Shown here: piece by piece, positions 12,188 through 14,128 of the stretch
How the letters are laid out: each line of letters begins with the position of its first letter
How positions within the stretch are numbered: position 1 is the first letter of the stretch
Assembly: GCA_018715645.1 (NCBI GenBank)
Contig: DVLE01000029.1
Coordinates: 1-45,584 of the forward strand
DNA: 45,584 bases
From: Candidatus Merdisoma merdipullorum
GTDB taxonomy: Bacteria > Bacillota > Clostridia > Lachnospirales > Lachnospiraceae
Direction of reading: 5' to 3'
Notes under the pieces: generated by a model
What the model saw: only the letters and a program-made list of their open reading frames with translations
Told to the model about the DNA's origin: nothing
The model's database searches: none
Translations under genes and position numbers: made by a program

Positions 12188-12216
12188 TTGACAAACAGGC
12201 TGCAGTCCGCTAAGAT
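12188..12216 (+). promoter_or_regulatory. Strong sigma-A promoter for the riboswitch transcript
   Basis: TTGACA (12188-12193), 17 bases, TAAGAT (12211-12216). Transcription would start near 12223, about 56 bases before the aptamer P1 stem. Confidence 0.75.
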
Positions 12217-12278
12217 AGTAGCGTTGGCGTGTCAGGGAAGCAAGAGCGTTCTGGTGTGCCGGCGTTACAGATTTGAGA

Positions 12279-12386
12279 CTTATATAAATTCATAATCGGT
12301 TGAATGTTTCTACCAACTGCCGTAACAGTTGACTATAAGCCTCCCTTCGGGGAGAGACTATACACTGCCGCGGCAGTTGGTTTTTT
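12279..12386 (+). ncRNA. Purine-riboswitch-like leader (guanine-type C74) with overlapping terminator
   Basis: The three-way junction aptamer is readable: P1 CTTATA (12279-12284)/TATAAG (12334-12339), J1/2 TAA, P2 ATTCA/TGAAT (12288-12292/12301-12305), J2/3 GTTTCTACC (12306-12314), P3 CAACTG/CAGTTG (12314-12319/12326-12331) and L3 CCGTAA. In xpt numbering U22, U47, U51 and C74 are present, which predicts guanine-type recognition. L2 is eight and L3 six bases, each one off the usual seven. The terminator pairs ACCAACTGCCG (12312-12322, inside J2/3, P3 and L3) with CGGCAGTTGGT (12371-12381), followed by T. Aptamer and terminator are therefore mutually exclusive, so ligand should allow read-through (ON). 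The fit to the family is strong but the ligand is inferred. Confidence 0.8.
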
Positions 12387-12419
12387 GCTGCCGTCAGACA
12401 AATGTCAGGAGGTATTTTT

Positions 12420-13826
12420 ATGAGAAAAACGGATGTATTGATTATCGGCGCGGGACCTGCAGGAATCTTCACGGCTCTGGAACTTCTGAAGAACGGAAGT
12501 AAAAAGAGTATCATGATTGTGGAGAAGGGACGGCCTGTGGAGAAGCGTTCCTGCCCGAAGACAAAGACGAAAAAATGTGTAAATTGTAAGCCTTACTGCA
12601 ATATCACGACGGGATTTTCCGGCGCAGGAGCCTTTTCCGATGGGAAGCTGTCCTTAAGCTGCGAGGTAGGCGGCGATCTGCCTTCTCTGATAGGAGAAGA
12701 TTTCGCCCAGGAGATGATTCATTATACGGATAAGATTTATCTGGAGTTTGGAGCGGATACCAAAGTGGAAGGCGTCGGAAACGAAAAAGAGGTCAAGGAC
12801 ATCCGGAAGCGTGCCATCCAGGCGGGCTTAAAGCTGGTGGACTGTCCGATCCGCCATCTGGGAACGGAAAAGGCCCAGGAGATTTATTACCGGATAGAAC
12901 AGTATCTGCTGGAAAAGGGCGTGGAAATCCTCTTTGGCTGCCATTGTCGGGATCTGATTGTGGAGAATGAGGTCTGTAAGGGAGCGGTTCTGGAGGATGC
13001 GGCAAAGCACACAGACGAACAGATCGTTTACGCGGAGCATGTGATCGTGGCCACCGGAAGAAAGGGAGCCGACTGGCTGGAAAAGCTCTGCGAGCAGCAT
13101 GATATTGCGCATGTACCCGGCACGGTGGACATCGGCGTGCGCGTGGAGGTACGCAACGAGATCATGGAGGATGTGAACAATATCCTTTATGAATCGAAGC
13201 TTATCGGTTATCCGCTGCCCTTTAAGAATAAAGTGCGTACCTTCTGTCAGAATCCGGGCGGCTTTGTGAGTCAGGAAAACTACGACAACGATCTGGCTGT
13301 GGTAAACGGACATTCCTACAAGGATCTGAAATCCAACAACACGAATCTGGCAATCCTCTGCTCCCACAACTTTACCCATCCCTTCAATCAGCCTATCGCC
13401 TACGCGCAGAAGATAGGAGAACTGACAAATATGCTGGGAGATGGAAGGATTCTGGTGCAGCGGTACGGGGACATTCTTGGCGGCAAGCGCACCTGGCAGA
13501 AGGAGCTTTCCCAGTCCAACGTCAAACCCACGCTGCCGGACGCGGTGGCGGGAGACATTACGGCGGCCATGCCCTACCGCGCCATGACGAACATCATAGG
13601 CTTTATCCAGGCTGTTGATCATGTGGTTCCGGGATTTGCCGCCAACGAAACCCTGCTTTACTCGCCGGAACTTAAATTTTACAGCAACCGCATCAAGATG
13701 ACGCCGGATCTGGTGACGAATATCAAGGGACTTTACTGCCTTGGAGATTCCAGCGGCTGGACAAGGGGACTAATGATGGCATCGGTTATGGGCGTGCTGA
13801 TGGGAAGAAAGCTTTCACGGAGCTGA
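12420..13826 (+). CDS. FAD-dependent oxidoreductase/dehydrogenase (COG2509-like)
   Basis: The protein starts with a dinucleotide-binding Rossmann motif, VLIIGAGPAGIFTALEL (residues 6-22), and ends with a second FAD-contacting motif, GLYCLGDSSGWTRG (near residue 440). A cluster of cysteines, CPKTKTKKCVNCKPYC (residues 42-57), follows the first motif and is characteristic of this uncharacterised FAD-dependent dehydrogenase family. GAFSDGKLSL is also conserved. The start is ATG 12420, eight bases after AGGAGG. The substrate is unknown. Its transcription is apparently governed by the purine-type riboswitch and terminator directly upstream, which suggests a link to purine or nucleotide status (inference). 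Confidence 0.88.
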   Translation: MRKTDVLIIGAGPAGIFTALELLKNGSKKSIMIVEKGRPVEKRSCPKTKTKKCVNCKPYCNITTGFSGAGAFSDGKLSLSCEVGGDLPSLIGEDFAQEMIHYTDKIYLEFGADTKVEGVGNEKEVKDIRKRAIQAGLKLVDCPIRHLGTEKAQEIYYRIEQYLLEKGVEILFGCHCRDLIVENEVCKGAVLEDAAKHTDEQIVYAEHVIVATGRKGADWLEKLCEQHDIAHVPGTVDIGVRVEVRNEIMEDVNNILYESKLIGYPLPFKNKVRTFCQNPGGFVSQENYDNDLAVVNGHSYKDLKSNNTNLAILCSHNFTHPFNQPIAYAQKIGELTNMLGDGRILVQRYGDILGGKRTWQKELSQSNVKPTLPDAVAGDITAAMPYRAMTNIIGFIQAVDHVVPGFAANETLLYSPELKFYSNRIKMTPDLVTNIKGLYCLGDSSGWTRGLMMASVMGVLMGRKLSRS

Positions 13827-13871: not shown

Positions 13872-14128
13872 TCGATATGAGAAATGCATAGAAGGTGCAC
13901 AGTAGGCGTTTGTTCTTCTTTCAGAGAGAGACCGTCACCGGCTGAAAGCGGTCTTAAGTTCAGACAGGCGTTGAAATTCCCACCGGAGCAGCGCTGCTGA
14001 AGCAGAAGAATAGGCGGCGACGTATCCTGCACGTTACGCAGAAGATGAGAGCCTGCAAGAGCAGGAATCAGGGTGGTACCGCGGATTAGATATTTTGACT
14101 CCGTCCCTTTGGGGACGGGGTTTTTTTG
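13872..14128 (+). ncRNA. T-box leader (Phe specific) with terminator
   Basis: The T-box sequence AGGGTGGTACCGCGG lies at 14070-14084, preceded by the stem III hairpin CCTGC/GCAGG. Stem I contains the AGAGAG...GGCTGAAAGCGG segment, and the specifier loop GAAATTCCC offers TTC (13977-13979), a Phe codon, matching the downstream pheST. The terminator is CCGTCCC (14101-14107)/GGGACGG (14112-14118) followed by seven T. Uncharged tRNA-Phe would pair with the specifier and T-box bulge and stabilise the antiterminator, allowing pheST expression. Confidence 0.93.

Follow-up and report, generated by a model that had tools for sequence, protein, structure and literature searches.

A guanine-class purine riboswitch on a predicted ON platform ahead of an uncharacterised flavoprotein gene

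The pbuE adenine riboswitch of Bacillus subtilis follows an ON logic: the 5' arm of its terminator lies in the aptamer, which has a U at position 74 and senses adenine. Guanine-I riboswitches are exemplified in the same species by that of xpt, the gene for xanthine phosphoribosyltransferase. As set out in the sections of PMC9295807 on these classes, known guanine-I riboswitches commonly lower the expression of genes for purine synthesis, salvage or uptake, and their aptamers discriminate merely ~10-fold against hypoxanthine and xanthine. The same sections describe variants of the scaffold that sense xanthine, 2'-deoxyguanosine (2'-dG) and 8-oxoguanine. Xanthine-II carries a U51G change together with insertions in J2-3 and J3-1, and guanine-II, from Paenibacillus, has a one-base insertion in J2-3 and mostly precedes phosphoribosyltransferase genes; both are predicted to be ON switches, and an ON direction is thus already predicted for one guanine aptamer, guanine-II (PMC9295807, same sections).

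We analysed the leader of a gene for an uncharacterised FAD-dependent protein in a stretch of 45,584 nucleotides from Candidatus Merdisoma merdipullorum (the window). Its aptamer resembles guanine-I in architecture, in U22, U47, U51 and C74, in the invariant CC of L3 and in keeping the GG of L2, but differs from known guanine-I switches in a terminator that overlaps P3/L3 and in a target gene that encodes an uncharacterised flavoprotein. The OFF direction that is usual in guanine-I, without defining it, is the opposite of what this overlap of terminator and aptamer points to. The leader has the pbuE-like ON platform, with the terminator 5' arm inside the aptamer and exclusive with P3, and differs from pbuE in carrying C74, not U74, and in its target gene. 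With guanine-II, as characterised in the sections cited of PMC9295807, it shares a guanine-class pocket and a predicted ON direction, whereas its J2/3 has normal length and that of guanine-II an insertion. With the 8-oxoguanine and xanthine-II variants of the same source it shares the three-stem scaffold, and xanthine-II is also predicted to be ON, but the pocket changes of xanthine-II are absent from the window aptamer. From the sequence, the leader probably acts on transcription as an ON switch, built on a canonical guanine-class aptamer, which would induce the flavoprotein at purine base excess. It would be a guanine-class aptamer on a pbuE-like platform, one of a predicted set in its bacterial family.

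The aptamer and its overlapping terminator

An Infernal search of the whole window identified a purine riboswitch (RF00167) at 12260–12355 on the forward strand, with 46.7 bits against a gathering score of 37 (E = 8.4e-5). Because only the top match is retained where members of a clan overlap, RF00167 is the best of its clan at this position. No second purine riboswitch was found in the host genome (2.87 Mb in 97 contigs, 87% complete). The features of the locus are as follows.

12188–12216 (+): sigma-70-type promoter, TTGACA-17-TAAGAT (10/12 matches)
12225–12261 (+): 5' leader hairpin ahead of the aptamer (forms when the leader is folded with the aptamer pairs imposed)
12279–12339 (+): guanine-class purine riboswitch aptamer core (RF00167, pair check, family covariation)
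12279–12284/12334–12339 (+): P1 (all standard pairs)
12285 (+): U22 equivalent in J1/2 (invariant in 36/36 aligned aptamers)
12288–12292/12301–12305 (+): P2 (all standard pairs)
12307–12311 (+): J2/3 segment from U47 to U51, UUUCU (U47 and U51 invariant in 36/36)
12312–12322 (+): terminator 5' arm, common to aptamer J2/3-P3-L3 (11/11 pairs with 12371–12381)
12314–12319/12326–12331 (+): P3 (all standard pairs)
12333 (+): C74 equivalent in J3/1, the ligand-pairing base, where C predicts guanine (invariant in 36/36)
12341–12354 (+): CUCCC-UUCG-GGGAG hairpin within the linker from aptamer to terminator 3' arm (sequence reading)
12371–12386 (+): terminator 3' arm (12371–12381) and U tract (12381–12386, T6) (sequence, pair check)
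12407–12412 (+): ribosome-binding site AGGAGG (sequence reading), 7 bases ahead of the ATG at 12420
12420–13826 (+): gene for the uncharacterised FAD-dependent protein, 468 aa, with Cys 45, 53, 56 and 60 (Pfam matches)

An earlier note, made from the letters of the window, had proposed a purine-riboswitch fold with its four pocket bases at 12285, 12307, 12311 and 12333, and had suggested a search with RF00167; the match above the gathering threshold agrees with this fold, and the four positions are correct. The loop sizes that it called non-standard were measured as given: L2 has eight nucleotides and L3 six, and both are closed differently from the model. We aligned 36 aptamers, our choice from the 69 found in the same bacterial family. 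The CC of L3 and the four pocket columns (U22, U47, U51, C74) are invariant in this alignment. Each of the 17 core pairs in P1, P2 and P3 changes at both of its bases somewhere in the set, which gives the pairings covariance support; 94.6% of the cells pair across the three stems, and the covariation score is 0.704, compared with 0.271 in shuffles and 0.06–0.12 when slid. Since the stems scored are those of a known family, the covariation confirms the membership of the aptamers and no new structure.

The strand 12312–12322, which runs from A52-C53 through the 5' half of P3 into L3, forms 11 unbroken Watson–Crick pairs with 12371–12381, followed by T12381–12386, just as the note had described. 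This pairing and P3 are mutually exclusive. The terminator arm pairs with the aptamer region at −22.7 kcal/mol, compared with a minimum of −18.1 in dinucleotide shuffles (0/100 as good) and with −7.1 for its best downstream-only partner. Folded with no ligand, the leader reaches −61.1 kcal/mol with the terminator and −51.3 with P1, P2 and P3 forced; with the terminator fold ~10 kcal/mol better, switching would depend on the energy of ligand binding and on kinetics during transcription.

Because the terminator overlaps J2/3-P3-L3, ligand binding should prevent termination. Without ligand, strand A12312–G12322 would quit the aptamer and pair with 12371–12381, and the terminator so formed would run into T12381–12386 and halt transcription before the FAD gene. 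With guanine bound (or possibly hypoxanthine or xanthine, at higher levels), P1, P2 and P3 would retain this strand, the terminator would be blocked, and the gene at 12420 would be transcribed. Its product would be a redox enzyme tied to xanthine/guanine handling and induced when purine base is plentiful.

In the rest of the leader, the promoter is the one promoter-like pair found, against a shuffle mean of 0.6, which is weak evidence on its own; a same-genus relative (L059) has TTGACA-N17-TAATAT directly ahead of its aptamer. The hairpin at 12225–12261 has a single match in the host genome, and the relative, with only 15 bases from the −10 box to P1, has no room for a hairpin of this type.

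Recurrence ahead of flavoprotein genes and predicted switch direction

The survey covered 250 genomes from the same family, sampled evenly out of a larger group and scored under strict filters, so that the counts are lower bounds. It yielded 69 purine aptamers in 55 genomes, several of which have more than one. As target we took the longest frame starting at most 700 bases behind the aptamer, and 67 of the 69 had one: 27 guanine deaminase-like genes, 14 homologues of the FAD protein, 7 NCS2/AzgA-type permeases, 4 BMP-type lipoproteins, 3 MATE, 3 XDH, 3 xpt, 2 uracil/xanthine permeases and 4 singles. With 14 of the 69 aptamers, the FAD-protein homologues rank second among the target classes, behind guanine deaminase; by chance, ~0.014 pairs would be expected if a genome has 3,000 genes. 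They are 37–100% identical to the window protein and make up three subfamilies (about 78–100, 51 and 37–41% identity). A purine aptamer does recur before these genes in other genomes of the family, a point that the earlier note had proposed to check. Outside this survey, a model built from the family aptamers was run on 534 kb surrounding 80 homologues from GTDB genomes, the best of at least 590, and gave 5 matches. All five are on the gene's strand and within 200 bases ahead of the protein match; the carriers are Lacrimispora amygdalina, L. defluvii, Clostridiales bacterium 38-18, an Eubacteriales MAG and Clostridium beijerinckii HUN142.

The protein search found 148 homologues in 147 of the 250 family genomes, of which 14 carry the aptamer and 134 have no such aptamer found; the upstream regions of 51 of the other family homologues (sets of 40 and 20, with nine in both) contain none. 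Since most homologues are without it, the enzyme does not need aptamer control. We inferred a tree, by a quick method, of 68 FAD proteins, 19 with the aptamer and 49 without (29 drawn from the 75 GTDB loci that lack it, and 20 family genes). The aptamer label needs 12 changes on this tree, and branches with good support force at least 9 of them. With shuffled labels the mean is 16.9 changes, and at most 2 of 500 shuffles are as low, so the label is clustered. The 12 changes and the clustering indicate repeated gain or loss of the coupling, together with some inheritance.

Direction was studied with a duplex scan, which takes the arm just ahead of each U tract and locates its best partner in the leader. 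It replaced an earlier terminator finder that allowed any closed structure and proved too permissive, scoring most loci as overlapping, multiloops included. The partner lies inside the aptamer in 15 of the 19 FAD-linked leaders: in the J2/3-P3-L3 strand (the window, L059, L066, L127, L024, L046 and L047), around L3-P3' (L009, L028 and L051), in P3'-J3/1-P1' (L013, L022 and L067), from P1' onwards (L118), or, weakly (−11.6), on the aptamer 5' side around P2 (L007). The four FAD-linked leaders in which the scan gave no overlapping terminator are L040, where it is distal, L125, where it is very weak, and L143 and L148, which have no U tract. Compared with shuffled aptamers, at most 5 of 100 were as good in 14 of the 16 leaders tested (6 for L067, 16 for L040). 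The leaders keep the overlap while differing in its exact register, a pattern for which selection for ON logic is the best explanation. The FAD-linked aptamers at L143 2896–2965, L148 2884–2953 and L125 2875–2953 have very short leaders with no strong terminator, and are perhaps translational switches.

In 25 leaders, terminator pairs change on both sides (aptamer position 56, A-U in 12 and G-C in 6; position 59, A-U in 17 and G-C in 5); these leaders were chosen for overlap in that part and the duplexes are those of lowest energy, so the count leans towards pairing. Between the window and L059, A12316 is replaced by G and its terminator partner U by C, while its P3 partner stays U.

The overlap also differs between groups of targets, which serves as a partial control. 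Among scored leaders, those of FAD, guanine deaminase, MATE and XDH genes show it in 35 of 37 cases and those of BMP, xpt and UraA genes in 3 of 8 (p 0.0008), a comparison that omits seven NCS2/AzgA permease leaders, one adenine deaminase and five others. The permease leaders comprise 4 overlapping, 1 distal and 2 weak; with the five scored ones placed in the second group, the comparison is 35/37 versus 7/13 (p 0.002). The counts leave aside three weak leaders (two guanine deaminase, one FAD) and those with no U tract (9/27 guanine deaminase, 2/19 FAD, 1/3 XDH and 1/2 UraA), several of which were called so because the scan goes no further than the earliest potential start codon. Two of the three xpt leaders, expected to be OFF, were scored as overlapping, with close runners-up. 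Direction calls at single loci are therefore unsafe, and the evidence is the difference between groups.

Ligand class and alternative readings

With C12333, the window aptamer is outside the adenine class, which has U at 74; in the part of PMC9430930 on one guanine switch, a C-to-U change gave no adenine response. The guanine-I sequence features are all present: C74, U22, U47 and U51, with J2/3 and J3/1 free of insertions. The one-base insertion of guanine-II is absent, J2/3 (GUUUCUAC) being of normal length, and so are the U51G change and the J2-3 and J3-1 insertions of xanthine-II, since U51 is kept and the lengths are normal. By sequence, then, the aptamer is neither guanine-II nor xanthine-II. 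The loci were read with a regular expression that anchored P2 wrongly in most rows, and J3/1 wrongly in a few, at least L065 and L008. What we took from it is restricted to J2/3, L3 and J3/1 of the window aptamer and to rough counts; L2 was measured separately. As the letters of U47, U51 and C74 are built into this expression, their invariance rests on the 36-aptamer alignment.

In known structures, the loops L2 and L3 sit away from the ligand pocket. L2 has 6 or 8 nucleotides in 23 of the 27 guanine-deaminase-linked aptamers, and GG occurs in L2 of 19/19 FAD-linked ones. A short L2 being usual before guanine deaminase genes, we take the loop sizes to be a lineage trait. The interpretation offered in the earlier note has therefore to be divided. 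Its idea that the loop sizes leave room for another ligand gains no support, and we rejected them as evidence on this point, given the 23/27 count and the canonical pocket. The other two parts stand, both as predictions: ON wiring of a C74 aptamer, through the overlap in 15 FAD-linked leaders, this one included, the shuffle tests and the tree, and control of an uncharacterised oxidoreductase, through the 14 family and five GTDB aptamers ahead of such genes.

The leader could also be an ON switch for some other purine (8-oxoguanine, xanthine, 2'-deoxyguanosine or hypoxanthine), with a guanine-like pocket that has been retuned. The target is no classical guanine gene, and in the sections of PMC9295807 on variants, scaffolds for xanthine, 2'-dG and 8-oxoguanine exist, xanthine-II looks ON, and guanine-I discriminates only ~10-fold against hypoxanthine and xanthine, for which reason the effective signal could be broader than guanine. 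Retuning of this kind is nevertheless unlikely, given that U22, U47, U51 and C74 are unchanged, that J2/3 and J3/1 have normal lengths, that the U51G change and insertions ascribed to xanthine-II in those sections are absent, that RF00167 is the clan member reported, and that the short loops also occur in guanine-deaminase leaders. An ordinary OFF guanine riboswitch, in which ligand-stabilised P1 would free the terminator-forming strand as in xpt, would accord with the usual lowering of expression at plentiful guanine (PMC9295807, same sections) and with the four guanine riboswitches of Clostridium difficile described as OFF in the relevant part of PMC11477304. We consider it improbable for this leader, whose best U-tract stem uses aptamer bases 12312–12322 and far exceeds the downstream-only alternative (−22.7 versus −7.1 kcal/mol). 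The 5-bp hairpin at 12364–12377 stops three bases short of the T run and was judged too weak, and 15 of the 19 leaders found ahead of this gene and its homologues share the overlap.

Finally, the purine aptamer might travel with its leader and have no special tie to the FAD gene, as the many homologues without an aptamer and the lack of a conserved operon around the gene would allow. This we regard as very improbable: 14 of the 69 family aptamers precede a FAD gene versus ~0.014 expected, the pairing involves three subfamilies and 12 label changes on the tree, and the place and sequence of the terminator differ between subfamilies with the overlap kept. Varied terminators with a constant overlap argue against the recent copying of one leader.

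Position 73, beside C74, is not A in ~10 of the 27 guanine-deaminase-linked aptamers (U in ~7, C in 3) and in 2 of 14 FAD-linked ones, counts from a pattern match that was mis-anchored at a few loci. In the guanine deaminase leaders the change is possibly a tuning of the pocket.

The flavoprotein and the other genes behind these aptamers

The FAD protein matches FAD_binding_2, Pyr_redox_2 and FAD-depend_C above the Pfam cut-offs; no NCBIfam model is above its cut-off, and the matches there are far below. We take it to belong to COG2509, an assignment made in the earlier note. Its sole relative in the PDB by sequence is VP0956 (3NLC), an uncharacterised protein (phmmer E 6.3e-24), which is also the first Foldseek match to the predicted model (pTM 0.90), with TMq 0.79. 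The next among the 50 Foldseek matches listed are fumarate-reductase-like and other generic flavoproteins (TMq 0.37–0.54). By sequence and fold similarity to 3NLC, the protein is thus a VP0956-like flavoprotein. Cysteines 45, 53, 56 and 60 (CX7CX2CX3C in the window) are invariant in 31 aligned sequences, and four cysteines with other spacing are also present in two members of the 37–41% subfamily. Judging by this motif, an iron-sulfur site is possible.

The gene has no conserved operon partner, the commonest same-strand neighbour family being present in just 5 of 80 homologue loci. It lies at most 1 kb from xpt on the same strand in 3 of the 107 family genomes that have both genes, compared with ~0.07 expected under random placement, a proximity that gives independent support to a purine role of the protein. 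The gap between the two is 42 bases in G050, 367 in G219, with a riboswitch in between, and 660 in G183, where we read the intervening gene as a signal peptidase. At L077, xpt lies 15 bases behind the FAD gene, and at L148 it is ~870 bases away on the other strand. The two genes are thus within 1 kb of each other in five separate genomes (G050, G219, G183, L077 and L148), in four of them on the same strand. Across the family, co-occurrence with the FAD gene holds for xpt (odds ratio 4.2, p 1.3e-7) and not for guanine deaminase (odds ratio 1.15, p 0.76), both uncorrected for kinship and completeness. These figures cover 147 of 154 xpt genomes and 57 of 58 guanine deaminase genomes, leaving out the fragments of G053 and the second fragments of G033 and G202. 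The guanine deaminase query had no match in 11 of the 14 genomes with an aptamer-linked FAD gene, the host included, so no guanine-degrading regulon is visible in those genomes.

For four of the target groups (guanine deaminase, XdhA, MATE and Xpt), a single representative was compared with NCBIfam. Guanine deaminase was the best match of the first, with 359.5 bits against a cut-off of 375.4. XdhA (partial query) and Xpt (60-residue query) were likewise the best matches of their representatives, below cut-off, and one MATE model was above cut-off. NCBIfam gave no match for the permease representative; the names BMP, permease and adenine deaminase are our reading of the sequences. The aptamers before guanine deaminase-like genes are L012, L014, L016, L018-L020, L023, L025, L029-L036, L038, L042, L045, L048, L050, L052, L056, L057, L060, L062 and L065. 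An aptamer-overlapping terminator is present at 15 of these 27 loci, each predicted from its leader to be a guanine-class ON switch for guanine breakdown. The same aptamer precedes xdhA (L010, L043 and L044) and MATE genes (L006, L058 and L061), with an overlapping terminator in five of the six leaders, the five that could be scored.

If the ON reading is right, a common guanine aptamer has been wired ON many times in one bacterial family, and the genes so wired are those that break down or export purines. Purine would then be a functional lead for a widespread flavoprotein family for which we found no assigned reaction, and this lead would make the substrate of the enzyme directly testable. 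The recurring pairing of sensor and gene in relatives ties the FAD enzyme to purine handling. In the open-access literature, with subscription papers mostly outside the search, we found no description of guanine-class switches ahead of genes for guanine deaminase or COG2509 proteins. The same literature yielded no ON guanine-I aptamers before degradation, efflux or COG2509 genes, their absence being unproven. More tentatively, and with considerable doubt, the four-cysteine COG2509 proteins may represent an iron-sulfur flavoenzyme, so far unrecognised, that acts in the anaerobic metabolism of purine bases, and the C74 ON switches may form a separate purine-excess regulon of Clostridia. In that case, the enzyme would act upstream of Xpt or next to it, in a redox step whose substrate is guanine, xanthine or hypoxanthine, and the regulon would include guanine deaminase, XDH, MATE efflux and the FAD enzyme, with a sign opposite to that of the classical guanine regulon.

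Behind the FAD gene, the window also contains a T-box leader (RF00230, 111.1 bits) at 13880–14111, before frames 14194 and 15229, which are presumably phenylalanyl-tRNA synthetase genes.
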